The notes under the pieces were generated by a model. The model was given only the letters and a program-made list of their open reading frames with translations, made no database searches and had not been told where the DNA came from. Below are positions 3,305-30,653 of a stretch of DNA of 39,847 nucleotides, one piece after another (position 1 is the first letter of the stretch; every line of letters begins with the position of its first letter). The position numbers were made by a program, and so were the translations under genes. Source of the stretch: a virus. The stretch is taken from positions 1-39,847 of IMG/VR virus record IMGVR_UViG_3300021963_000273; one strand, given 5' to 3'.

Positions 3305-3335
3305 CAAATATACGAAATATTTTTAAGAATTCCAA
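3305..3335 (-). promoter_or_regulatory. Host-type promoter before the polymerase-like gene
   Basis: On the coding strand TTG (3333-3335) is followed after exactly 20 bases by TATATTTG (3305-3312), a full match to the Bacteroidota -7 element TAnnTTTG with its -33 TTG. Transcription should begin within a few bases of the ATG at 3298, so the mRNA may be nearly leaderless. Confidence 0.6.
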
Positions 3336-4105
3336 TACTTTTCTACCAATGGTTTTAAATCAATTGGTTCTCTTTTCATGTGAGAACCTTGATTAAAGAA
3401 TGCTCCTTTTTTAAGGTATCCTCCTAAAAAGTTTCTACGAAATCTTTGAGAGTTATTTGGCTCTGAACCATGCACACAATGTGAATGTAAAAGTACAACC
3501 TGTCCCTTTTTAAGAACTCCTTCTACTTTACGAAAATCATGTCCCTCTGGCATTACACAAGGTTTACCTCTTTCATTTCTCCAAAATGATGGGTTAGTTT
3601 TAGTTCTTTCCTCATCAACTTCAATCGGTAAAGTTGGTAAACGATGCGAACCTTCATAGTTCCATACCGCTCCGTTACCCGCATCGTGGTTATCTAACGC
3701 TAATGCAGTATTAATAATCTCATTATGACCACAACCTGTGTAGAATGCGTTTTGGTGCATATCTCTTCCTAATTGTCCAGGTGGTTTGAAGTATGCCCAA
3801 GTCTGCATACCTACAATTTCACCTTCCATAAGGAATTCACACGCTTCAATAATTTTCGGGTGAACAAATAATTTTTCTAACTTCTCAGAAATTTTATGAG
3901 GGTAAGCAAATGGATCCCATTCTCCCCAATCTTTACCATCTGGAGTAAGAGTTCCTTTTCTTTCCTGTCTTAATCTTTCTAATTCATCATTTACTTCATC
4001 ACATTCTTCCTCTGTGAGTAAATCTAAAGTTGTAAAACCTCTATACCTCCAATCGAAGGTCATTTGTTGGATTTCTAAATCCGATAAGTGTTTAAAATTT
4101 GCCAT
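3323..4105 (-). CDS. PhyH-type Fe(II)/2-oxoglutarate dioxygenase family protein
   Basis: The 260-residue protein has the layout of phytanoyl-CoA dioxygenase (PhyH) family members. There is a proximal His at 117 in the MHQNAFY motif, then a DNHDAGNGAVW segment and an EGSHRLP turn (151-157), a distal His region HSHCVHGSEPNNS (207-219), and Arg223/Arg224 placed to bind 2-oxoglutarate. The usual proximal HxD reads H-Q-N here (Asn119; codons CAC CAA AAC), so one iron ligand is changed. It may therefore have altered chemistry or be inactive; the substrate is unknown. PhyH-like genes are common in T4-like phages of aquatic bacteria. It lies just after the baseplate genes and ends 24 bases before the polymerase start. 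Confidence 0.75.
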   Translation of the reverse strand: MANFKHLSDLEIQQMTFDWRYRGFTTLDLLTEEECDEVNDELERLRQERKGTLTPDGKDWGEWDPFAYPHKISEKLEKLFVHPKIIEACEFLMEGEIVGMQTWAYFKPPGQLGRDMHQNAFYTGCGHNEIINTALALDNHDAGNGAVWNYEGSHRLPTLPIEVDEERTKTNPSFWRNERGKPCVMPEGHDFRKVEGVLKKGQVVLLHSHCVHGSEPNNSQRFRRNFLGGYLKKGAFFNQGSHMKREPIDLKPLVEKYWNS

Positions 4106-13819: not shown

Positions 13820-14311
13820 TTAGAATTCCAAGATTGCGTAATCGTAAGTAAGTGTTAATTCGATTGTCGCTGGGTCAGTAGCATTTGCCCAATCTAACTC
13901 ACCAAAGTTAGCCTGAGAAATAAATGCTCCTTTTAACTTCCATTGTTCAATCTTATCACCTACTGGCCCTAACATATAGAAATCTACATCTTTCTTATAG
14001 AACTCAGCGTATCCATCTCTACCTGTCAAAGATTCGTGAGAAGTTCTAACCCACTCCATTACTGCCTGTGCTCCAGAAGGAACAATTGGGTCATAAAGAG
14101 TAATTGTTAAATCTTGCCACTCACCTTTACCTTTTAACTGTCTTTTGATATTGATGTGGTCTAATGTTACCTTCTCAAACTGAATAGTAGGTCTGTTACC
14201 AGCTTTTACTAAATATGAAGGGATACCGTCAACTTCGAAGATGAAACGGTTTTTCATCTTTGGTTCGAAGTTCGTATAGAACATCTCATTAAATTCTAAT
14301 ACTTCTGCCAT
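13820..14311 (-). CDS. 19: Tail tube protein (gp19-like)
   Basis: The 163 residues equal the length of T4 gp19. The N-terminus (FYTNFEPKMKNRFIFEVDGI), the KVTLDHINIKRQLKGKGEWQ strand-loop and the closing ATIELTLTYDYAILEF match the tube fold shared by gp19, Hcp and related proteins. It polymerises in hexameric rings inside the sheath. It lies directly after the sheath gene, as in T4, carries its own late-type motif 17 bases before the ATG, and is followed by a strong terminator. Both fit the need for high expression. Confidence 0.9.
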   Translation of the reverse strand: MAEVLEFNEMFYTNFEPKMKNRFIFEVDGIPSYLVKAGNRPTIQFEKVTLDHINIKRQLKGKGEWQDLTITLYDPIVPSGAQAVMEWVRTSHESLTGRDGYAEFYKKDVDFYMLGPVGDKIEQWKLKGAFISQANFGELDWANATDPATIELTLTYDYAILEF

Positions 14312-14350: not shown

Positions 14351-16651
14351 TTATACATTAAATGTAGCTCCTGTTGGAAGAATGTTGAAATCAATTGTAA
14401 TGAATTCCGCAGTCTTAGCAGGTTGTAAGAAGATAGCTCCAGCTAAAATGTTTCTATCTATTACATCTGGTGTATTATTTGTTTCATCCATAACCACTCT
14501 GAACGCGTATAAACCTTGTCTTTGTTGAACACTCTCCAAATAAGGGTTTACAGTGTTTAAGAATTTACTTCTAGTTTGTGCAGTATTTTGTTCGAATACT
14601 AAGAATCTTGAAGTAGATGCAACAAACTTTTTCAAGTTGATTAACAATCTTCTTACATTGATTCTATCTAATGCAGATGCCTTATCTTGTAAAGTTTTCT
14701 GTCCAAATGCACTAATACCTTGTCCAGGGAATGTTGCAATTGGGTTTACTTTACCTTCGTATAATGTATCTCTTTCAGATTGAGTTAATCTATTAACAAC
14801 CTGAACAGCTCCAGCAATTCCACCTCTATTCAAACCTGCTGGCGCGAACCATTCTGCTCCTAATCTATCGTTTTGTGCGAATGTACCTACCATCAATACT
14901 GAAGGTGGAACTGTCACCAATTTATTTGTATTTACATCAATTGTTTTAATCCAAGGATAGTAAGTTCCAGCATAGTTAGTATCTTCTCCTAATGCCTGTT
15001 CAACTACTTCTGTAATTGTAGCGTCAGCTCCTGCAAAATCAGCGATATAGAATACATCTTCTCTACTTTCACACACATCAATTGCCTTAGTTGTTACATA
15101 AGGATGATATTGTCTTACAATACCAGGAGTTACTAATAGATTGATATCAAATTCATCCTGATTTGAAATAGCGTTTAATGCTTTTGCGTATGCTATTGAA
15201 CCACTAGATGTTGAAGTTGAACAATCGAATCCTTGTGTGTTTGTCGCAGTTATATCTACTCCTTTTTTAATAGGAGTAGTTGGGTTTTGCCCATTCCATC
15301 CACCTTGAAATGCTAATACAAAGTTTCTCATTGCCAATTGATTAGAATCAGATGTTTCAGCTGAACTTAATCCAATATTATATTCATTCGATGCTCCAGC
15401 TGCACTATCTAACGCAAATATTTTATTTGAACCAGATGTTGTGTTTGCAGGAAGTGGTTTGAAATAGTTTTTATTATTTGCAATTGCGTAATCAATACCA
15501 CTTGAGAAAACTGATGAACTAAATGATGCTGATGTGTATGTTACAATTGGGAATCTTGAAGGTGTTGCCACATTAAATGGAACTTCGTATCCAGCGTGTC
15601 CAAATGGAATCGCAGTTAATGGATAAGTTCCTTCTTCTGCTACCTCAACTCTTACATACTTACTTCTATTTGCATAATTTCCGCTTTCAGTTATTTTACC
15701 ATTCTCATCGATTGTTATGGTTCTATCACCGATTCTTCTAGCGATAAAGTTAGGAGAAGCAGGATCCAATGTTAAGTTATTATATTGTTCTAATACAGTT
15801 TTTCTCTTATCGGTATCTGAGTATGCTCTAACCAATAATGAGAATGTACCATAATTTGTACCATCAGAAGATTTGATACTACTGATTTGTATTTTAAATC
15901 TTGTATTTTCTCCTTCACCATCTGCCAAAGTATGAACTTTGAAAAGATTGTATCTTGTTCCACTATAAGTTTGAGATAATACCCAAGGTGTGATTGCTTT
16001 ACTATATGCAGGGTCATCTACAGTTCCTGTGAAATCTTGTGTAGATGCGGATGCAAAACTTAAACTAATTTGTGAAAGTGGTGCTGCTCCAAAAATATCA
16101 TTTAATGCAGAACCAGCTTCTCTGATATCAAAGAAATTGTATGCATATAAATTTTTACCAAAGAATGGAGATTCACCAAATATATCATCAATTGTATTTG
16201 AATCTGCTTTAATGATACTAGCACTCACTGCGGTCAATCCTGTTCCCACTGCTCTGAATGTTCCATTAGTACCACCTTCTAATAAAGGTGCTACATTTAG
16301 CGAACTTGATGCAGGTGCCAAAATAGCTATTGATGCGGATGTTGAACCAAATGATGCAATTACTTCATACGCATTTGTCAATGAATATCCACCCACTCCT
16401 GCTACTCTTACTACGGTTACAGCTCCAGCATCTCTAAGATAGTTCTGAACTGCATAACCAGTATAAAAGTCTTTAGGTGTTCCAAAGATAGCTTCATATT
16501 CAGCCTGTGTTTGGATTAATGTCGGAAGGAATGCTGGCCCTTTTTCGGTTGGCCCAACGACAGCTGCACCTATTTGTGATATACCCTGTGGTAAGAAAGA
16601 AAGGTCGTTTTCTCTCGTAAAAACACCAGGTGATACAATTTTTTCTGCCAT
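14351..16651 (-). CDS. 18: Tail sheath protein (gp18-like)
   Basis: The 766-residue protein begins with the sheath signature SPGVFTREND (7-16). This is followed by AAVVGPTEKGPAFLPTLI, a YEAIFG motif, and AVQNYLRDAGAVTVVRVAG (about 67-85). The C-terminal third has the conserved core (AGLNRGGIAGAVQVVNRLTQ, INVRRLLINLKKFV, AEFITIDFNILPTGATF) of contractile sheaths. T4 gp18 has 659 residues; the difference is probably in the exposed middle domains, rich in Ser/Thr/Ala here. Contraction of this protein drives the tube through the host envelope. It is followed 39 bases later by the tube gene. Confidence 0.93.
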   Translation of the reverse strand: MAEKIVSPGVFTRENDLSFLPQGISQIGAAVVGPTEKGPAFLPTLIQTQAEYEAIFGTPKDFYTGYAVQNYLRDAGAVTVVRVAGVGGYSLTNAYEVIASFGSTSASIAILAPASSSLNVAPLLEGGTNGTFRAVGTGLTAVSASIIKADSNTIDDIFGESPFFGKNLYAYNFFDIREAGSALNDIFGAAPLSQISLSFASASTQDFTGTVDDPAYSKAITPWVLSQTYSGTRYNLFKVHTLADGEGENTRFKIQISSIKSSDGTNYGTFSLLVRAYSDTDKRKTVLEQYNNLTLDPASPNFIARRIGDRTITIDENGKITESGNYANRSKYVRVEVAEEGTYPLTAIPFGHAGYEVPFNVATPSRFPIVTYTSASFSSSVFSSGIDYAIANNKNYFKPLPANTTSGSNKIFALDSAAGASNEYNIGLSSAETSDSNQLAMRNFVLAFQGGWNGQNPTTPIKKGVDITATNTQGFDCSTSTSSGSIAYAKALNAISNQDEFDINLLVTPGIVRQYHPYVTTKAIDVCESREDVFYIADFAGADATITEVVEQALGEDTNYAGTYYPWIKTIDVNTNKLVTVPPSVLMVGTFAQNDRLGAEWFAPAGLNRGGIAGAVQVVNRLTQSERDTLYEGKVNPIATFPGQGISAFGQKTLQDKASALDRINVRRLLINLKKFVASTSRFLVFEQNTAQTRSKFLNTVNPYLESVQQRQGLYAFRVVMDETNNTPDVIDRNILAGAIFLQPAKTAEFITIDFNILPTGATFNV

Positions 16652-16713: not shown

Positions 16714-16968
16714 TTATTCCTCTGTTGGCTTGAACTCTCCGGTGTCTAAATCTATTGTACCATTACCATAAGTTTCTTTTAATTTTTGGAAAACTTCATT
16801 CTCTTTTCCTCTAAGAACTTCTAAACTTTGGTAATAGGATAAACTCTCACCTTCCAATTCTTTAATTTTAACCTGAATCAAACCTATGTTTGAATATAAA
16901 TTGGTATATTCACTTCTGATTTGATTGATTTCTTGTAACTCTTCTTGCGATAACTTTTTGATTTCCAT
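16714..16968 (-). CDS. Small coiled-coil protein
   Basis: The 84-residue acidic protein is predicted to be one long coiled-coil hairpin. An N-terminal helix (KLSQEELQEINQIRSEY), a middle helix with Leu/Ile heptads and a C-terminal helix (KENEVFQKLKETY) precede a short end, GNGTIDLDTGEF. This helical-hairpin plus DLDTGEF pattern resembles small prefoldin-like phage proteins encoded near tail genes, whose function is unknown. It sits alone between the Hint-containing gene and the sheath gene and has its own late-type motif 30 bases before the ATG. Confidence 0.75.
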   Translation of the reverse strand: MEIKKLSQEELQEINQIRSEYTNLYSNIGLIQVKIKELEGESLSYYQSLEVLRGKENEVFQKLKETYGNGTIDLDTGEFKPTEE

Positions 16969-17068: not shown

Positions 17069-18355
17069 TTATCCAGTCGCACTACTTCCGTAAGCAGTTT
17101 GTAATCCTGCAAAGTTTAATCTCGCTCTAGCATAAATTGCAGTAGCACTTTTGTAATCATAAGTATTAGTACTATATGATGTTGGTGCTACTAATATAGA
17201 TGCGAATCCTGAATCCGATGCAATTTGGATATCATAAGAATAGTTAGCAGTAATTGCAGTTGAACCTGGAGAGGTTACTGCACTATTCGTTGAAAGTGTT
17301 AATCTTCTATAAGTTTCACCACCAATAGTTACAGTTGAAACTGATACAGTTGGTGTAGCTGAAATTGAATATCCGGCAAATGAGTTAGCACCTTTGTTGT
17401 GAGTTACAAATCCATTTACAATATAGGTATCCACTTCTTCCACGTCAATTGATACAACTTCTATTGTAGTATTTTGAACTTCATTTGTTAATACATTCAC
17501 CTCTTCAATACTTCCATCTAAATTTACTTTAATAAATCTGTCGTTTGGTTGAACTAATCCTAATGGTTTAAATTTATAAACTTCTTCATTAATATCAAAA
17601 ACCATCATAGGGTGTTCACCGTTTCCTTTTACTGAACCACTATCGGTAGTTACAATATTCCATCTATCAACAAATGTATATGCCACATCTTTAACATAGG
17701 AATCAACCATAATACCACCAGGTGTATAGTATGTCCAATCATAGAAGTTGAAATCAGTAAGAGTATCAACATGAGGAGGATAATAAGAACGAACTATATC
17801 TCCTTCTACCAAATCACCTGCCTTTTTAGTTGTTCCATCCGCCATTAATACATCTTCATCTAAATGTAAACACAATCCACTCGCACCCGCATAATCATCT
17901 ACATTGTAAACAGTTTTATCTTTTTGAGTATTATATCCTGTTGCGTGGTCATTAAAGGTATCCCTAAATACAACCGATAATGTTCTTGCAGTTGGCGCTG
18001 ATAAAGTTGTTGAGTTTCCAATTGCCGCGGCAGTTACGGTTGGATTATATGGAGGGCTTGATTGAATTGAGAATTCTGCTCCGGCTGATAAAGACCAAGT
18101 AAAGTTATTAGTTACACTTCCTATTCTACTTAAAAAACGGCTCCCCGCATCAGTAAATCCTAATGTATATGTTTCCCCAGTAGATTCTTTCACATAAGTA
18201 AATCCACTTATTGAATCAACGGAATCAATACCGAATTGAGACATTGCAATTGGCCCCGTTGTTGTTCCTGCTGCGGAGGAGAGTGAACTTGCTGCAGCTG
18301 CGGTTGCCACTTTAAGATTTCCTAACGAAAGCGTATTTCCAGATGTTCTAGGCAT
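17069..18355 (-). CDS. Fibre-like virion protein interrupted by an intein-like Hint domain
   Basis: The 428-residue protein has three parts. Residues 1-160 are Ser/Thr/Ala-rich and fibre-like. Residues 162-320 form a Hint (intein/hedgehog) domain. Residues 321-428 are a beta-rich Ser/Thr-rich segment. The Hint signs are Cys162 followed by a DEDVLMADGTTKKAGDL block A, the block B His248 in NGEHPMMV, and a closing VDTYIVNGFVTHN with His319-Asn320. The residue after Asn320 is Lys, not Cys/Ser/Thr, so standard splicing is not expected. This is the mark of bacterial intein-like (BIL) domains, which cleave or splice unconventionally. There is no homing endonuclease. The ATG overlaps the glycosyltransferase stop by 8 bases, so it is translationally coupled to that gene and to the large fibre upstream. 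A processed adhesin or tail decoration is inferred. Confidence 0.8.
   Translation of the reverse strand: MPRTSGNTLSLGNLKVATAAAASSLSSAAGTTTGPIAMSQFGIDSVDSISGFTYVKESTGETYTLGFTDAGSRFLSRIGSVTNNFTWSLSAGAEFSIQSSPPYNPTVTAAAIGNSTTLSAPTARTLSVVFRDTFNDHATGYNTQKDKTVYNVDDYAGASGLCLHLDEDVLMADGTTKKAGDLVEGDIVRSYYPPHVDTLTDFNFYDWTYYTPGGIMVDSYVKDVAYTFVDRWNIVTTDSGSVKGNGEHPMMVFDINEEVYKFKPLGLVQPNDRFIKVNLDGSIEEVNVLTNEVQNTTIEVVSIDVEEVDTYIVNGFVTHNKGANSFAGYSISATPTVSVSTVTIGGETYRRLTLSTNSAVTSPGSTAITANYSYDIQIASDSGFASILVAPTSYSTNTYDYKSATAIYARARLNFAGLQTAYGSSATG
17396..17872 (-). other. Hint (BIL-type intein-like) domain
   Basis: Codons for Cys162 to Asn320 (159 residues). Predicted cleavage points are before Cys162 and after Asn320. 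Block A, the block B His and the terminal HN are all present; the +1 nucleophile is missing (Lys321). Confidence 0.8.
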
Positions 18356-19361
18356 TGTATATATTTAATAATTTTGTTGTCCAATTTTCACTATCACCAA
18401 ACTTATCTATCAATTGAGATTTGAGTGAATTAAATTCTTCAACTCTCTCTTCATAAGATAATTCTATGATACTCTTATAAATATTTACAAATTCTCTTTT
18501 AGTATCGGCTCTGAATTTATAATTTATTTCAGAACACCAATCTTCACTCAGAATAGGTAATTTTCCCCAATCTACGCTTTGAAATATTGAATAGCCAAAT
18601 GGTTCAGCACTAAAAGCGGAATGAGAAATTCCCCAATCCATCTGATAATATTTTTCACTATATTCACTTTCAAATTGTATTTTTTTTAATTTTGAAAAAT
18701 CTAAATCTAATTCCTTTTTCCAAGTATTTTGAAAAGGTCTTATATTTGTAAACATATAACCTTCTAATCCATCTAAATAATGTGGGTTTTTTCTAACTTC
18801 ACATCTAGATGTAAATCCTATTTTATTTGAGTTAGATAATTCATTGTTTTTTATGAATTTGTAATAAGAAGGTATTGAAACATAATTTTCAAATACATCT
18901 TCGTGCAATTCATATAATCCCACCCAAACCTTATTCTTAGCTTTAACTAAAATTTTATTTTCCCATTCTTTCGAATAGTGCGGTATCCAACCAAATTGTA
19001 AATCCGATAAACCACTTTGAACATAAACTTTTGATAAATCATTATGTATAATATAACTCCATAATTTATCTAAGTTTTCTTCGATTAATTCCAATGGTGT
19101 ATAATGAGCGTGAAGAATATTTACTCGTCTACATTCTTTAAACTTTTGTTCAAAAATATCTTTGTGATTACCATTCTCATCATTGTACCAATAGTGTTCA
19201 ATTGGTATTTCAAAATTAAAATCAATCGGTTTGTTTCTATAAATAAGTAAAACCGGCTGAGTGTCTAAGTTCTTACTTATTTCACTCAACCAGTTATTTA
19301 CCCAAATATCTACTCCAGTATTGATTTTACCTATTCCTGTGGTAAAATATACATCAAACAT
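18348..19361 (-). CDS. Glycosyltransferase (GT-B/GT4-like)
   Basis: The 337-residue protein has features of a GT-B fold glycosyltransferase. The N-terminal domain contains a glycine-bearing TTGIGKINTGVDIW loop (7-20) and a strand ending ILHAHYTP (82-89). A C-terminal nucleotide-sugar domain has GISHSAFSAEPFGYSIFQSV (244-263), where EPFG (253-256) corresponds to the E-x7-E region of GT4 enzymes, followed by GKLPIL. Donor and acceptor are unknown. It lies 3 bases after a giant Ser/Thr-rich fibre gene and overlaps the Hint-containing gene. I infer that it glycosylates one of those virion proteins or, less likely, the phage DNA. Confidence 0.75.
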   Translation of the reverse strand: MFDVYFTTGIGKINTGVDIWVNNWLSEISKNLDTQPVLLIYRNKPIDFNFEIPIEHYWYNDENGNHKDIFEQKFKECRRVNILHAHYTPLELIEENLDKLWSYIIHNDLSKVYVQSGLSDLQFGWIPHYSKEWENKILVKAKNKVWVGLYELHEDVFENYVSIPSYYKFIKNNELSNSNKIGFTSRCEVRKNPHYLDGLEGYMFTNIRPFQNTWKKELDLDFSKLKKIQFESEYSEKYYQMDWGISHSAFSAEPFGYSIFQSVDWGKLPILSEDWCSEINYKFRADTKREFVNIYKSIIELSYEERVEEFNSLKSQLIDKFGDSENWTTKLLNIYNA

Positions 19362-19364
19362 TTA

Positions 19365-22300
19365 TTATAAACCTTTTTGTCTTTTCAAATTCTCAATCTC
19401 AACTTTCATATCGTTGATTTGAATTTGTTGTTCTTTTATACCTTCAATTAAAAGGGCAACTAATTTATCGTATTTAACTGCCTTATACCCATTCTCTCTC
19501 GTTTGAACTAATTGAGGTAATACTTCTTCTATTTCCTGTGCGATTACACCCACATCGTTTCCTTCGTATCCGTGCTCAATTTTATTCTCTTCATTCCAAT
19601 CAAAAGTATTACCACTAATTTTATTAATCTTATCTAATGGTTTTTCAATTGCTTTAATATTATTCTTAAATCTTCTATCTGATGATGAGTAAGCTACGAT
19701 ATCGTTTGTAGCATCTATTCTACCTGCAGTAGCAGATGCCGCCATTCCAACACCTAATGAGTTGAATTGAACATTTGATGATGTTGCTACTGCTTGTCCG
19801 ATAGAGATTGTTACTGCTCCTGTTGCACCACTTACTGTCACACCAGTACCCGCTACATTTGAAGTTACACCGGCATTAGTCAAAGTTATCGATGAACCCA
19901 GCGCCACAGTACCACCGCCACTCATACCTGTTCCAGCGGTTACTGTTACTGATGAGTTAGCTAAATTAGCGTTTGAAATACCAGCAGTTCCACTTAGGTT
20001 AGAGTTTGTTAATCCACTAATTGTGTTTGAAGCCGCTGCAATAGTTTTGTTTGTAAGAGTTTGTACACCGGTTAATGTAGCAACAGTTGAATCAATTGAT
20101 AATGTTCTTGTTGTGGATATATCACCGCCCCCAGTTAAACCTGTTCCTGCGGTAATTGATACTGCAGTATGATCTACGTGTCTATTTGCAGAATATCCGG
20201 TAGTTGAATCATGTGATACTTGTGATGAACCACTAAATGCTCCAATTGCATTACCTATCGTTGCCGCAGTTATAGTTCCACCTAATGATGTAGATTGCCC
20301 CGCGATTGTAATTGAGTTATTTGTCAATGCAATTGTAGGAGTTGCTCCCTCACCACTATTATTTGTAAGTGTAATGTTAGTACCCGCTACTAAACTTGCA
20401 ACATAATCTCCAGATGTATCAGTTCCTAATGCAACTGAATTTGCCTGAATTGTAGCTACACCATTTGATGCGATTACTACATCACCACTTACACCAGAAT
20501 AAACTTGTGAAGAACCTGATATTACTCCTTCTGCGCTTAATTTAGTTTTTACTCTACTATCTAAATAATATTTGTTTGTAGTTCCTTCAGTCAAATCATC
20601 AGTATCTACCGATGGTAAAGTTGTAATTTGAGCAGAACTACTTATTAAAGTAGAGGTTGTTGAAATAACAGAACCAGTAATTTCCAAATTAGAATTTATA
20701 GAAACTTTAGTTCCTGTATCAGTAATATTACTATCACCTAAATGTTTTGCATTTACCGATTTTACAATTCTATTTGTTGTGGGGTATAGTTCTGAACCTA
20801 AAGAATCGTATGATTGAGGCCCCATTAACAATACTGAAGAAGTAATTGCTGCACCAGATACCGCCTGATGAACATATACCCACTGATCATTTATCGAATC
20901 AAATAGTAATGAACCAGATACTTCTGAAGCTGAACCACTATCAATTACTGATAATCCACCGAAACGGATAGATGGATTTAATGCATTTACTTTTATAATG
21001 TTTGTCCCAACATTTAATTGAGATGAACTAATATTTTGAATTGAAGATGAACCAGCAACAACTAAATCTTGTGAAATATATAAAGAACCAGTAATTGTTT
21101 GATTACCTTGAAATATATTACTTCCCGTTGTCGCAAAACTTCCACTCTTTTCTTCAATTGAATTCAATCTACCATTAGCCGATGATGTAAATGAATTTAA
21201 ACTACTTGTCGCAGTATTAACAGACGATGTAAATGTATTGATAATCGAACCAGTTGCTATTACACTTGCACTAAATGAGTTTAGAGATGAAGTTGAAGTA
21301 TTAACTGATGATGTGAAAGTGTTCATTATTGATCCACTCTCTCTAACCGATGCAGAAAATTCATTCAAGCTACTCGTAGAACTATTAACTGAGGAAGTGA
21401 ATGTATTAATAATTGAACCAGTAGCAATTACTGATGCACTAAATGTATTAACACTAGATGTAAAAGTATTAATTATTGATCCGGTAGCAATTACACTTGC
21501 ACTAAATGAATTTAATGAAGAAGTTGCAGTATGAATAGCGGCTACATTTAAATCATTTGATGCGGTATAAGAATTTAAAGATGCAGTAGATGTAAATAAA
21601 GAGGTATTCCTACTATCTTGTGATGATGTGTAAGTATTTAAACTACCAGTTGCGGTTTCAATTGAGTTTAATCTAAGATTTTGTTGATTTTGTGCAGATT
21701 GTTGTGAAGCAGTTGTACTATTAACACTTGCTGAAAAACTTTCCAATCCATCTAATCTTCCATTTTGAGAAGTATTAGTCGTATCGTTTGAAGCAGTGAA
21801 TATATAAAATTCTTGCCCCAATAATATCTTATCTTCATTACCACTTGTTCCAGCTTTCCAATAATCATTTGTAGTATCCCACAGTAAAGAACCAGATGTA
21901 GTAGTCCCGCCAGTCGCATCTCTTACTATAATACCTCCATTTGTAGCACCTGTTCCGTTAAGTGAAATTATATTATCACCGATATCTACGGTTGTTGAGT
22001 TAATTGTAGTTGTAGTTCCTTTAACTAAAAGGTCACCTTTAATTGTTAAGTTAGAGCCTGTAAATTGGATTGCGGAATCAACTGATGCAGAGAATGATAC
22101 TAAACTACCACTTGTTGTTTCCAACGAAGTTAATCTTCCTTCAGCGGATGCAGTATGTGTATTTAAACTACTTGTAGATGTTTCAATTGCATTTAATCTA
22201 CTATTTTGAGTATTATTAGTAGTGTTATTTGAAGCAGTATAAGTGTTGAACGAACCTGAAAAAGTGTTGAATGTTTCATCTAAACTAGCGGTTTTTGTTT

Positions 22301-22865
22301 CTAACGCACCAACTCTTCCATTTAAAGAAGCGGTTGTAGTGTGAATTGCACTAATATTTGTATTGTTAGAAGCGGTATAAGAATTTAATGAATTAATTGA
22401 TTCCGTATTTGAATTCAATGATGTAGCACTTAATGTACTAACTACTGTTCCTCCTGCATTGACAAATTTAATTGAACCAGTTGAAACATATATATCTCTC
22501 CAAAACTTAGCTTCACTACCTAAATCAAATTTATTTGCTTCTGATGGGATTAGGGATGAACTTAAATTTGCATTTACAGCAACGGTGTCAGAAGTTTGGT
22601 CACCAATTGTGATATTACCTCCTAATGTAAGGTTTCCTTTAATTTCAGCATTTGATGTTATATGCAAAGTTGATGCTGATACAAATGTGGAAGCAGAAAC
22701 GCTTAGAACATTTAGTGCCGCTGCATCTCCCACTGTTGCTAAAGTTATATCACCACTACTACCTCCGATTTGTAGAGTTCCTAATGATGTATTTACATAC
22801 GGTTCTCCATAAGCTAATGAACCCGATTTGTCTGCTGTCGAACCTCTTCTAAATTTAAGTGCCAT
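19365..22865 (-). CDS. Giant tail fibre with C-terminal S74 chaperone (1166 residues)
   Basis: The N-terminus, KFRRGSTADKSGSLAYGEPY (4-23), is the particle-binding head seen in fibres of this type. Then comes a long Ser/Thr/Asn-rich coiled-coil region of SLNSFSAS/TSSVNTFSAS units with a Leu/Ile/Phe heptad phase. A globular module (IKGDLLVKGTTTTINSTT to WDTTNDYWKAG, about residues 275-345) is also present in the other giant fibre. Near 575-650 is a diverged second copy of that module. The last ~130 residues are an S74 intramolecular chaperone: NSLGVGMAASATAGRIDATN, then SSSDRRFK, DVGVIAQEIE and YDKLVALLIE. By family knowledge the chaperone helps trimerise and then cuts itself off before Ser1062. 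It is the first gene of the operon with the glycosyltransferase and Hint protein. Confidence 0.9.
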   Translation of the reverse strand: MALKFRRGSTADKSGSLAYGEPYVNTSLGTLQIGGSSGDITLATVGDAAALNVLSVSASTFVSASTLHITSNAEIKGNLTLGGNITIGDQTSDTVAVNANLSSSLIPSEANKFDLGSEAKFWRDIYVSTGSIKFVNAGGTVVSTLSATSLNSNTESINSLNSYTASNNTNISAIHTTTASLNGRVGALETKTASLDETFNTFSGSFNTYTASNNTTNNTQNSRLNAIETSTSSLNTHTASAEGRLTSLETTSGSLVSFSASVDSAIQFTGSNLTIKGDLLVKGTTTTINSTTVDIGDNIISLNGTGATNGGIIVRDATGGTTTSGSLLWDTTNDYWKAGTSGNEDKILLGQEFYIFTASNDTTNTSQNGRLDGLESFSASVNSTTASQQSAQNQQNLRLNSIETATGSLNTYTSSQDSRNTSLFTSTASLNSYTASNDLNVAAIHTATSSLNSFSASVIATGSIINTFTSSVNTFSASVIATGSIINTFTSSVNSSTSSLNEFSASVRESGSIMNTFTSSVNTSTSSLNSFSASVIATGSIINTFTSSVNTATSSLNSFTSSANGRLNSIEEKSGSFATTGSNIFQGNQTITGSLYISQDLVVAGSSSIQNISSSQLNVGTNIIKVNALNPSIRFGGLSVIDSGSASEVSGSLLFDSINDQWVYVHQAVSGAAITSSVLLMGPQSYDSLGSELYPTTNRIVKSVNAKHLGDSNITDTGTKVSINSNLEITGSVISTTSTLISSSAQITTLPSVDTDDLTEGTTNKYYLDSRVKTKLSAEGVISGSSQVYSGVSGDVVIASNGVATIQANSVALGTDTSGDYVASLVAGTNITLTNNSGEGATPTIALTNNSITIAGQSTSLGGTITAATIGNAIGAFSGSSQVSHDSTTGYSANRHVDHTAVSITAGTGLTGGGDISTTRTLSIDSTVATLTGVQTLTNKTIAAASNTISGLTNSNLSGTAGISNANLANSSVTVTAGTGMSGGGTVALGSSITLTNAGVTSNVAGTGVTVSGATGAVTISIGQAVATSSNVQFNSLGVGMAASATAGRIDATNDIVAYSSSDRRFKNNIKAIEKPLDKINKISGNTFDWNEENKIEHGYEGNDVGVIAQEIEEVLPQLVQTRENGYKAVKYDKLVALLIEGIKEQQIQINDMKVEIENLKRQKGL

Positions 22866-26492: not shown

Positions 26493-29400
26493 TTACTTCC
26501 CTGCTTCTAATTTATCAATTCTTTCCTCTAATTTTTCAATCGTATTTTGTTGTTCTTTGATTGCTTCTATAAGGAGTGCAGTAAGTTTATCGTATTTAAC
26601 GGCTTTGTATCCACTATCTCTTGTCTGGACTAATTCTGGAACCACTGCCTCTATTTCCTGAGCAATTACACCAACATCATGTCCCTCATATCCATGCTCT
26701 AAATTTGGAATCCAATCAAATTCATATCCACCGATTTCTTTTATTTTTTGAATTGGAGAACCAATTCTTACAATGTTTGTTTTAAATCTTCTATCGGATG
26801 AAGAGTACGCCACAATATCATTAGTAGCATCTATTCTACCTGCAGTTGCGCTCGCAGCCATTCCAACTCCTAATGAATTGAATCTAACATCTGAGGTGGT
26901 TAATATAGATTGATTTATATATGTACCAAATCCAGTAGTAGATGCAATAGAAACTTGTGAAGATCCACTTATTACACCATCGGTATTTAATTTATTTTTT
27001 ATCGTAGTATTAATAGATGATGTAAAACTATTTAAACTACTTGTTGCAGTATTAAGTGCAGTTAGATTTGAATTATTAGATGCAGTATAAGAATTTAAAC
27101 TACCTGTCGCGGTATGAATAGCATCTATATTTAATGTATTTGAACTTGTATATGAATTCAAAGATGCGGTTGCAGTATGAACAGCATTTAAATTTAAACT
27201 AAATGATGCGGTAAATGTATTCAAACTTGCAGTTGAAGTATGAATTGCATTTATATTAGTAGTATTCGATGAAGTATATGCACTTAAATTAGCTATAACA
27301 CTATTATTAGATGCAGTATATGAATTCAAACTATTCAATGTAGAATTGATTGAATTAATATTATTTGTATTTGATGCAGTGTAATTGTTTAAACTTTCAG
27401 TTGTTGAATAAATTGAATTAATTTTTCCATCGTTTGAAGATGTGTAAGAATTCAATGTTCCCCTTAAAGCAGTTACATCAGCATCGGTTGCATAGGTTGT
27501 ATCAATTGATGCAGTAAATGATTCTATTGCATTTAATCTATTAACAGCCGAAGCACTAAATGTATTTAAACTTCCTGTTGAAGTGTGAATTTCTGATATT
27601 TTTCCATCAGTTGATGAAGTGTAGGTATTTAATGTACCCCTTAAAGCGGTTACATCGGCATCAGTTGCATAGGCTGTATCAATAGAAGCGGTAAATAATT
27701 CTAATGCATTTAATCTACCATTTGCAGATGATGTGTATGAATTTAATGCACTTTCTAATATAATTTTTTCTTCACCGCCATTTATACCAGCTTTCCAATA
27801 ATCAAGTGTTACATCCCATACTAAAGAACCAGATGTTGTTGTTCCACCCGTTGCATCTCTTACTATGATTCCAGCATTTGATGTACCAGCTGCGTTCAAT
27901 GAAATGATATTATCATCTAATTGAATTGTAGTTGAGTTAATTGTAGTAGTTGTACCTTTTACTAATAAATCACCCTTAATAGTTACTGCAGAACCCGTAA
28001 GTTCAATTGCAGTTTTTAAAGAAGATGTATAGGTATTAAGTGAACCAGATGCAGTTTCTAATGCATCTAATCTACTATTTTGTGCCGAATTAGTTGTATT
28101 ATTAGATGCAGTATATGCATTCAACGATGAGGTTGAAGTATGAATTGCAGTTAATCTATCCTCAACCGATGTAGTATAATATTCAAGTGATGCAGTATAA
28201 TTTTCAAATGTAAATGCATCTAAGAATCCAGTACCAGCAACGAATGAATTTATTCTACTATTAAATGATTGTGATACCTGACTAAACGATGCAGTTATTG
28301 AAGATGCAGATGCAAATAAACTTGCAGTAGCAATATTCAATGAAGAAGTTGTTGCCTCTAATGCACTTAATCTACTATTTTGCGAACCAGTAATTGTATT
28401 AACTGATTGGGTAAATGAGTGTAAAGAACCAGTATATGCTCCAAATTCTATTTCAGAAACAAATGTATTATCTAAAGATGAACTAAAGGATTCTAATGCT
28501 ACTACTCTAGTATTAAATGATGAACTTGCAACAGTGAAAGAAGCGGTATGAGAATTAAAATCATTTCTTATGCTTCCACTTTCAGTTTCGATTGCGGATA
28601 ATCTAGAATTAGCAGAAGATGTATATGAATTGTAAGTTGTTCTAACGCTTCCACTTTCAGTTTCGATTGCAGATAATCTACTATCAGTAGATGCAGTATA
28701 TGAATTTAAACTTCCAGTTGAAGTATGTATTGCATTAATATTTGCAGTATTAGATGCAGTATAAGAATTTAAACTACTTGTTGAAGTATAAATTTCACCT
28801 ATATTAATATCATTAGATGCAGTATAAGAATTTAAACTACCTGTTGCAATATGAATTGCATTTATATTAGTAGTATTCGATGAAGTATATGAATTAATAG
28901 AACCACTATATGTGTGAAAACTCTGGCTTTGTGCCTCTAAACTTTCTCCTCTACTATTAATAGATGAACTAAAAGTGTTATAACGGTTTTCTAAAATTAT
29001 TTGTTCTTCAGCTCCATTAACCCCTGCTTTCCAATAATCATTTGTAGTATCCCACAATAAAGAACCTGAAATAAATGAAGATGCTGTTGCATCCCTTACA
29101 ATCAATCCACCATTTGATGCAGCACTACCATTTAATGAAATAATATTATCTCCTATATCAACAGTTGTAGAATTAATTGTTGTAGTCGTACCTTTAACTA
29201 AAAGGTCACCTTTTATTGTTACATTTGATCCCGTTAATTCAATTGCGTTGTTTAATGAAGATGTGTAAGAATTTACAGATGATGTAAATGTGTTTATTAT
29301 AGAACCAGTCGCAATAACCGATGCACTAAATGAATTTAAAGATGCAGTTGCAGTATGAATACTTTGGCTTGCATTATTTAATGGGTCTAATATACTAATT

Positions 29401-30653
29401 ATTTGAGATGAACCAGATACTACTCCATTTGTTGAGTGTATAGAAGCAGTTAAGCCACCTAATACAATTAAAGAACCTGTGATTTCGGCATTATCTTTAA
29501 CAAAAAGATTATTATCAACCGTTAATCCTTTTCCAAATAAACGAGTATCTCTAAAAATTAATGCATCACCTGCGTTATTACTACTTAATAAAGTACGGTC
29601 TACACCATCTTGTTCAAATACTAATGCTACGCCAGAATCACTTGCCATAAATTTCCAAGCGTTATTTTCAGGCCCAACATCATTATTTCTATATCTTAAT
29701 TCTAAAGTAGCATTCCCAGTAATTGGGTCAAGTGTAGTATGTGTGAAACTCAAAGAACTTGTCAGACTTCCACTTTTAGTTATAGTATTAAATTGTCCAT
29801 TTAATAGTGATAAAGAACCAGTTATAGTTTGATTTCCTACAAAATTATTTGAACCAGTTGTTGCGTATGAACCCGTTACACCTTCTATAATGTTTAATCT
29901 ATTATTAACACTTTGCGTATGAGTGTTAATTATTGAATTTATAGTATTTTGTGATGATGTGTAGGAATTTAAATATACTAAAGATTCTGTTACCGAAGAA
30001 CTAAATGCGTTTAATGATGAGGTTGCAATATAAATTGTACCAATGTTTGTATTATTAGAACTTGTATAAGAATTTAAACTTCCTGTTGATGTTTCTAAAC
30101 TACTTAATCTATTGTTTTGAGTTGTATTTGTACTATCATTAGATGCAGTATAGGAATATAAACTTGAAGTTGCTTCATTTAAACTTGCAAATGATGATGA
30201 AATATCTGATACACTTCCTAAATTGTCAATATTGTCTATTGATGCATTTTGTACAAATATTTTTCTCCATTTATACGCAGAAGAACCGATATCATATAGA
30301 GTTGATTGATCAGGATTAAGAGAACCACTTAAAGTTGCAACAACTGTGATTACATCAGATGTCTGGTCACCAATTTTTATATTTCCACTAACGAAAACAT
30401 TTCCGGCAAAATAAGCGTTAGATGCAGTAATATCTCCAGTTAAAGAAAGTGAACCTGAGTTAGCAAAAGAACCACTCCATTTAGAAGATGAGGTTTTTCC
30501 CCTATTTAATTTAACCAAAGTAATTTCTTCGCTGCCATCACTACCACTAGTCCCGAAAACTATACTCTGACTATCTGCGTTCAAGTAAGGTTCTCCATAA
30601 GCTAAAGTTCCTTTAGCACTACTACCACCTCTTCTTATTTGGAAAGTTGCCAT
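26493..30653 (-). CDS. Giant tail fibre with C-terminal S74 chaperone (1386 residues)
   Basis: The largest gene of the window. The head TFQIRRGGSSAKGTLAYGEP (3-22) parallels that of the 1166-residue fibre. Many repeats of about 21 residues (INAIHTSTGSLNSYTASN-like, three heptads each) form a very long Ser/Thr/Asn-rich trimeric coiled coil. Two copies of the globular module (KGDLLVKGTTTTINSTT to WDxTxDYWKAG) interrupt the shaft. A unique domain near residues 270-420 (HTTLDPITGNATLELRYRNN) may be an additional receptor-facing or structural knob. The S74 chaperone occupies the last ~130 residues, with the predicted self-cleavage before Ser1286 in SSSDRRFK. It follows the 27-residue peptide gene and has its own late-type motif. 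Confidence 0.9.
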   Translation of the reverse strand: MATFQIRRGGSSAKGTLAYGEPYLNADSQSIVFGTSGSDGSEEITLVKLNRGKTSSSKWSGSFANSGSLSLTGDITASNAYFAGNVFVSGNIKIGDQTSDVITVVATLSGSLNPDQSTLYDIGSSAYKWRKIFVQNASIDNIDNLGSVSDISSSFASLNEATSSLYSYTASNDSTNTTQNNRLSSLETSTGSLNSYTSSNNTNIGTIYIATSSLNAFSSSVTESLVYLNSYTSSQNTINSIINTHTQSVNNRLNIIEGVTGSYATTGSNNFVGNQTITGSLSLLNGQFNTITKSGSLTSSLSFTHTTLDPITGNATLELRYRNNDVGPENNAWKFMASDSGVALVFEQDGVDRTLLSSNNAGDALIFRDTRLFGKGLTVDNNLFVKDNAEITGSLIVLGGLTASIHSTNGVVSGSSQIISILDPLNNASQSIHTATASLNSFSASVIATGSIINTFTSSVNSYTSSLNNAIELTGSNVTIKGDLLVKGTTTTINSTTVDIGDNIISLNGSAASNGGLIVRDATASSFISGSLLWDTTNDYWKAGVNGAEEQIILENRYNTFSSSINSRGESLEAQSQSFHTYSGSINSYTSSNTTNINAIHIATGSLNSYTASNDINIGEIYTSTSSLNSYTASNTANINAIHTSTGSLNSYTASTDSRLSAIETESGSVRTTYNSYTSSANSRLSAIETESGSIRNDFNSHTASFTVASSSFNTRVVALESFSSSLDNTFVSEIEFGAYTGSLHSFTQSVNTITGSQNSRLSALEATTSSLNIATASLFASASSITASFSQVSQSFNSRINSFVAGTGFLDAFTFENYTASLEYYTTSVEDRLTAIHTSTSSLNAYTASNNTTNSAQNSRLDALETASGSLNTYTSSLKTAIELTGSAVTIKGDLLVKGTTTTINSTTIQLDDNIISLNAAGTSNAGIIVRDATGGTTTSGSLVWDVTLDYWKAGINGGEEKIILESALNSYTSSANGRLNALELFTASIDTAYATDADVTALRGTLNTYTSSTDGKISEIHTSTGSLNTFSASAVNRLNAIESFTASIDTTYATDADVTALRGTLNSYTSSNDGKINSIYSTTESLNNYTASNTNNINSINSTLNSLNSYTASNNSVIANLSAYTSSNTTNINAIHTSTASLNTFTASFSLNLNAVHTATASLNSYTSSNTLNIDAIHTATGSLNSYTASNNSNLTALNTATSSLNSFTSSINTTIKNKLNTDGVISGSSQVSIASTTGFGTYINQSILTTSDVRFNSLGVGMAASATAGRIDATNDIVAYSSSDRRFKTNIVRIGSPIQKIKEIGGYEFDWIPNLEHGYEGHDVGVIAQEIEAVVPELVQTRDSGYKAVKYDKLTALLIEAIKEQQNTIEKLEERIDKLEAGK

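Follow-up and report, generated by a model that had tools for sequence, protein, structure and literature searches.

In class 1 inteins, a thioester is formed at Cys1 and transferred to a Cys, Ser or Thr at position +1, and the intein is released via cyclisation of its terminal Asn. The canonical mini-inteins of phage terminases and replication proteins bear such a +1 residue on a Hint splicing domain; they interrupt conserved enzymes, homologues of which exist without the intein. Hint domains that are devoid of a +1 nucleophile are commonly viewed as broken or cleavage-biased inteins. In Hedgehog proteins (Hog), a Hint domain without the C-terminal His-Asn is followed by a sterol-recognition region. 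Type A bacterial intein-like (BIL) domains, such as the Clostridium thermocellum BIL (PDB 2LWY), combine the Hint fold, Cys1 and a His-Asn end with the absence of a Cys, Ser or Thr at +1. Their ligation has been proposed to occur when a freed amine attacks the thioester (PMC4031507), although cleavage products predominate (PMC4031507; PMC7664689). BIL2 of the Tetrahymena thermophila BUBL1 polyubiquitin locus (PDB 6TMM, 6Y75) is described as forming an isopeptide bond with a Lys side chain and as being able to conjugate its own N-extein to other proteins (PMC8616854).

The window (the whole stretch of 39,847 nucleotides analysed here) contains a gene of a T4-like virus of bacteria, ORF 17069-18355 on the minus strand, whose 428-residue product is a tail-cassette protein with an internal intein-like domain. 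We put the probability at roughly 0.6 that this product is a virion precursor of the tail cassette, permanently equipped with a BIL-like (type A-like) autoprocessing domain for which Lys321 is the candidate amine. Processing of some kind by the Hint domain is quite probable. The translation reproduces the anatomy of the original prediction, which had placed Cys162, His248, His319-Asn320 and Lys321 as below, with 159 residues from Cys162 to Asn320 and flanks of 161 (N side) and 108 (C side) residues.

17873..18355, minus strand: N-extein, the N-terminal module (residues 1-161); conserved family-wide, with a homologous module in a short-tail sister family
17396..17872, minus strand: Hint (intein-like) domain (residues 162-320); limits from TIGR01445/TIGR01443, fold from AlphaFold2 and Foldseek, present in all N-module homologues found
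17870..17872, minus strand: Cys162 (Cys1), putative thioester-forming residue by Hint homology; invariant in the 57-sequence alignment and in 101/101 non-redundant members
17612..17614, minus strand: His248, block B histidine; invariant column of the 57-sequence alignment
17396..17401, minus strand: His319-Asn320, block G; invariant in the 57-sequence alignment, codons varying synonymously
17393..17395, minus strand: Lys321 (+1), with Gly322 next; 100/101 non-redundant members have Lys
17069..17395, minus strand: C-extein, a fibronectin type III-like domain (residues 321-428) plus stop; Pfam fn3 in homologues

The N-module is 45% identical to that of L166, a member of the sister family, in which the C-extein is swapped for a tail of 4-9 residues. 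Pfam fn3 is matched by 21/57 aligned homologues; the window protein's own fn3 match is not significant. Its block B motif reads N-G-E-H, as opposed to T-x-[ED]-H in most relatives, and the block F histidine is replaced by Asp309, an Asp that is invariant across the 57-sequence alignment.

Searches with the window protein as a single sequence returned no Hint match in Pfam or among PDB sequences. Its two NCBIfam matches lie slightly under the curated cut-offs and delimit the domain: TIGR01445 (intein N-terminal) starts exactly at residue 162 (E 0.0037), and TIGR01443 (intein C-terminal) ends at residue 320 (E 0.029). Pfam Intein_splicing is matched by 39/57 aligned homologues at E<=0.1 and PT-HINT (PF07591) by 32/57 at the same threshold (best 5.5e-7), the window protein having no PT-HINT match and the individually examined homologues falling under the cut-off. 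A PDB profile search with the family alignment matched BIL and intein chains. The AlphaFold2 model, built from the 57-homologue alignment (pLDDT 83), has BIL2 of BUBL1 as its top Foldseek match in the PDB (E 5.7e-10), ahead of mini-inteins, the Clostridium BIL and Hedgehog; among viral models, it matches several phage proteins whose names mark them as containing a Hint domain. The modelled protein thus combines the predicted fold with Cys1 in block A and the block B histidine, which places the domain in the Hint superfamily. A chance occurrence of the signature can be dismissed, because homologues retain Cys1, the block B His, His-Asn and the +1 Lys, and because the model matches solved Hint domains. 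Comparison of a modelled structure with Hint folds had been proposed along with the original prediction; since a Hint fold is predicted, an objection on this ground fails. Profiles, predicted fold and family conservation together uphold the Hint/BIL-like reading, and equally the tail-cassette context and two-ended anatomy that had been claimed.

How does this domain relate to the systems described above? BIL2 is the best structural match and shares Cys1 and the C-terminal His-Asn; it is, however, eukaryotic, sits between ubiquitin-like domains and is only 17-18% identical. Its nucleophilic Lys is reported to lie in the following ubiquitin-like domain, whereas the candidate here, Lys321, is the +1 residue itself. 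The idea that BIL2 shares the +1 Lys was not borne out, since in the alignment no Lys of the crystallised chain falls at that position. By analogy, the passing of the thioester to another nucleophile, one outcome in the original prediction, has a close precedent in the Lys isopeptide bond that BIL2 is reported to form (PMC8616854). Type A BILs reside in variable, non-conserved bacterial proteins. The window family, in contrast, consists of phage tail-cassette proteins in a conserved gene order, with one fixed site across hundreds of viral sequences and a near-invariant Lys-Gly at +1/+2. Its difference from Hedgehog is the terminal His-Asn, followed by the FN3-like domain or a short tail. Homologous Hint domains also occur in tail, virion or fibre proteins of Erwinia, Dickeya and Yersinia jumbo phages and of phage NCTB ('large intein domain protein'), but these are C-terminal, with tails HN-TDIVAKAEKK, HN-VDLVSKAEKN and HN-APVDQKH, and follow other N-exteins; no glycosyltransferase relative was present in the flanks examined. 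The literature searched yielded no functional study of these jumbo-phage and NCTB Hint domains, and an isopeptide-specific literature search gave no result.

Close homologues of the window protein number in the tens. A Hint-level search reached 266 viral contigs, and among the 80 listed a script read Lys-Gly after the terminal Asn in 79; in the odd one (L095) the script had locked onto another His-Asn. A search with the N-module, in which the Hint domain was not used, found at least 80 loci. Among the loci listed, the N-module occurs in 252 frames, each of which also has the Hint domain, with no Hint-free form (0/252, including the 80 listed loci from the N-module search); these are mostly uncultured contigs, partly redundant, and the searches were seeded from Hint-bearing proteins. 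The sister family has a C-terminal Hint domain ending VHN-KGSNVNPF, VHN-KGSN and similar. The N-module had no match in named phages, and the prokaryote genomes searched held no confirmed relative. A mobile intein with empty sites was likewise looked for, and none was found with the N-module alone as query.

Pfam and NCBIfam matches revealed no homing endonuclease, and the 159-residue domain is without spare room for one; many mini-inteins also have none, so that this absence alone does not exclude a canonical intein. A canonical (class 1) intein is ruled out by Lys321 at +1 and by the absence of intein-free alleles among the 252 listed frames. From the constant insertion point, we take the Hint domain to be a fixed domain rather than a mobile intein. 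Might it instead be a passive passenger, a mobile or decayed intein no longer able to splice? The missing Cys, Ser or Thr at +1, the lack of a homing endonuclease and the loss of the block F His would fit such decay. Nevertheless, the active site and the +1 Lys are held across wide divergence despite synonymous codon changes, and Hint-free alleles are absent from the 252 listed frames, which together make this explanation hardly credible.

Conservation is most telling at the +1 residue. Among 101 non-redundant members from the loci listed, Cys1 is present in 101, Lys+1 in 100 and Gly+2 in 98; the Lys is encoded by AAA in 87 members and AAG in 13, and codons vary synonymously at the Lys, the Asn and the His. 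The lone non-Lys member is a paralogue ending HN-TFHDK, with Thr at +1. The original prediction was correct in that the +1 residue is a Lys and not a Cys, Ser or Thr, but an accidental loss of the splicing nucleophile does not agree with Lys in 100/101 members. A viral-collection pattern search blind to the +1 residue served as control: 87 of its 91 Hint ends have Ile, Leu, Val, Ala or Thr at +1, and the four with Lys are all KGSN/KGSD short-tail members of the window Hint family. Thus, Lys+1 appears to be a family trait and no general property of viral Hint domains. It is also seen in a few other lineages (L169, L223, L224, LR756508). On a weakly resolved tree of 41 Hint domains, the Lys label needs five changes, two of them forced by well-supported branches, and the sequences may reflect a single ancestral origin of Lys+1 with losses.

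What is the Lys retained for? It is kept even where the C-extein is just a tail of 4-9 residues, so that selection seems to act on a Lys beside the active site and not on the C-extein. Likewise, the retention of His-Asn-Lys-Gly in proteins with a C-extein of few residues argues for a role of the Lys in the Hint reaction, not in the C-terminal domain. It could be retained for reasons other than nucleophilic attack, such as steering C-cleavage or fixing the shape of the junction.

Other features of Hint ends in these viruses are recorded here as separate observations. Residue -1 is Leu or Phe in 83/86 members with a long C-extein and Ser, Ala, Thr or Gly in 15/15 short-tail members. A large viral family (L228, L230, L235, L245, L253) has tandem Hint domains, the first apparently without Cys1 and ending VHN-[IL]PP, the second directly after it and starting CFVAGT or CFTGDT; others have short Lys-bearing ends (IPKR, LPPK, LPKK). 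Degenerate Hint-like domains without Cys1, in which a terminal His-Asp replaces His-Asn, are found in L217, L218, L220 and L222.

How might the domain act on its host protein? We infer autoprocessing at both junctions because the residues for thioester formation and Asn cyclisation are all kept, except for the block F His. We envision that an N-S acyl shift at Cys162 would turn its peptide bond with Leu161 into a thioester and that Asn320 would cyclise, cleaving before Lys321 and freeing it; the 161-residue N-module would thereby part from both the Hint domain and the FN3-like piece. Asn cyclisation is helped by the block F His, whose replacement by Asp here means that C-cleavage may be slow or regulated. 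An amine of Lys321, either the new alpha-amine or the side chain, might then attack the Cys162 thioester, and a normal or an isopeptide bond would link the N-module with the C-terminal piece, within the same chain or in a neighbouring subunit. Such Lys-based ligation by the Hint domain is a tentative proposal, which we regard as somewhat doubtful; in the short-tail relatives it would gain just 4-9 residues, an uncertain benefit.

Alternatively, the Hint domain may only cut, at one or both ends, leaving pieces that drift apart or are held non-covalently, with Lys+1 merely tuning cleavage; this would be a maturation step akin to the self-removal of the S74 chaperone. The preponderance of cleavage among type A BILs (PMC4031507, PMC7664689) is in keeping with this scenario, as are the S74 chaperone domain encoded by the neighbouring fibre gene and the C-terminal Hint domain of the short-tail relatives, which could simply be shed. 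Cys1 alone would suffice for such shedding, yet the short-tail forms keep both His-Asn and Lys-Gly. We consider cleavage without joining a serious contender, if with slightly less than an even chance.

The autoprocessing precursor that we favour lies in a cassette whose order is conserved around homologues: S74 fibre, a 337-residue GT-B glycosyltransferase, Hint protein, small protein, tail sheath and presumed tail tube. In the window, its genes next to the Hint gene are:

19365..22865, minus strand: tail fibre protein bearing an S74 (self-cleaving) chaperone domain, one gene upstream of the glycosyltransferase; Pfam Peptidase_S74 8.3e-16, conserved order
18348..19361, minus strand: GT-B-fold glycosyltransferase gene, from AlphaFold2 and Foldseek; 8-base overlap with the start of the Hint gene
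16714..16968, minus strand: small protein gene, next downstream of the Hint gene; conserved order
14351..16651, minus strand: tail sheath; phrog_23 tail sheath 1.6e-74, conserved order
13820..14311, minus strand: presumed tail tube, directly after the sheath; from position only, conserved order

From gene order and resemblance to fibre proteins, the Hint protein is inferred to belong to the virion and its N-module to have a role in the tail. The fibre proteins at 19365-22865 and 26493-30653 are both long and Ser/Thr-rich, and their S74-type C-terminal regions look very similar. Near the structural genes, 3323-4105 is a possible phytanoyl-CoA dioxygenase-like gene, read from sequence alone.

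The glycosyltransferase is marginally detected by sequence profiles, whereas the top Foldseek matches of its AlphaFold2 model (pLDDT 91) are all glycosyltransferases (best E 2.8e-10). The 337-residue neighbour is on this model a divergent glycosyltransferase with a GT-B fold and a predicted activity; its substrate may be the Ser/Thr-rich fibre or the Hint protein. This conserved partner is absent from the original prediction. Among the loci listed whose contig permits the test, the gene is directly upstream of 230/232 Hint frames. Conversely, when loci are picked by the glycosyltransferase alone (at least 80), a Hint gene follows immediately downstream in 79 of the 80 listed, the remaining one being cut by the contig end. 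The sole glycosyltransferase match in 50,697 phage records is LR756508, where 59 bases separate the gene from a Hint gene whose N-extein is unrelated and whose product ends HNKH. This pairing with an unrelated His-Asn-Lys Hint domain argues for a functional link between glycosyltransferase and Hint, part of which is accounted for by conserved gene order. On the other side of the glycosyltransferase, a second Hint gene is present in some genomes, its product mostly ending HN-VHxK; four-residue tails of this form (HN-VHDK, HN-VHAK, HN-VHGK) are seen at L198 430-1491, L357 1130-2173, L425 912-1970 and L427 2874-4016.

The nearly constant presence of the glycosyltransferase beside the Hint gene, and again 59 bases from the unrelated one in LR756508, would also suit intermolecular cross-linking, in which the acceptor of the Cys162 thioester would be a lysine or hydroxyl belonging to another virion protein, or else a sugar from the neighbouring enzyme. 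The reported ability of BIL2 to conjugate its N-extein to other proteins (PMC8616854) points the same way. However, Hedgehog-like transfer needs no C-terminal Asn, which is conserved in the window Hint family, and the linkage of the two genes may be plain conserved gene order, the acceptor being putative. We therefore regard cross-linking as unlikely, and for attachment to a host surface, as originally suggested, no evidence was found. Within the autoprocessing reading, a specific version is similarly improbable: Lys+1 splicing in a tail Hint-glycosyltransferase module, in which the +1 Lys would be the acyl acceptor and an isopeptide bond would connect the N-module with the C-terminal piece or with an adjacent subunit as a step of virion assembly.

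A large phage family thus keeps the active-site residues and a near-invariant Lys+1 across wide divergence, which means that the Lys probably takes part in the reaction itself. With small proteins, Lys-based acyl transfer by a Hint domain becomes directly testable, and it is a possible source of new protein-ligation tools. The adjoining glycosyltransferase suggests that the two modifications, glycosylation and Hint processing, may be linked, and together with the conserved Lys it hints at an unstudied lysine-dependent cutting or covalent joining of phage proteins. If this is true, phage tails would undergo a covalent step of maturation during their assembly.
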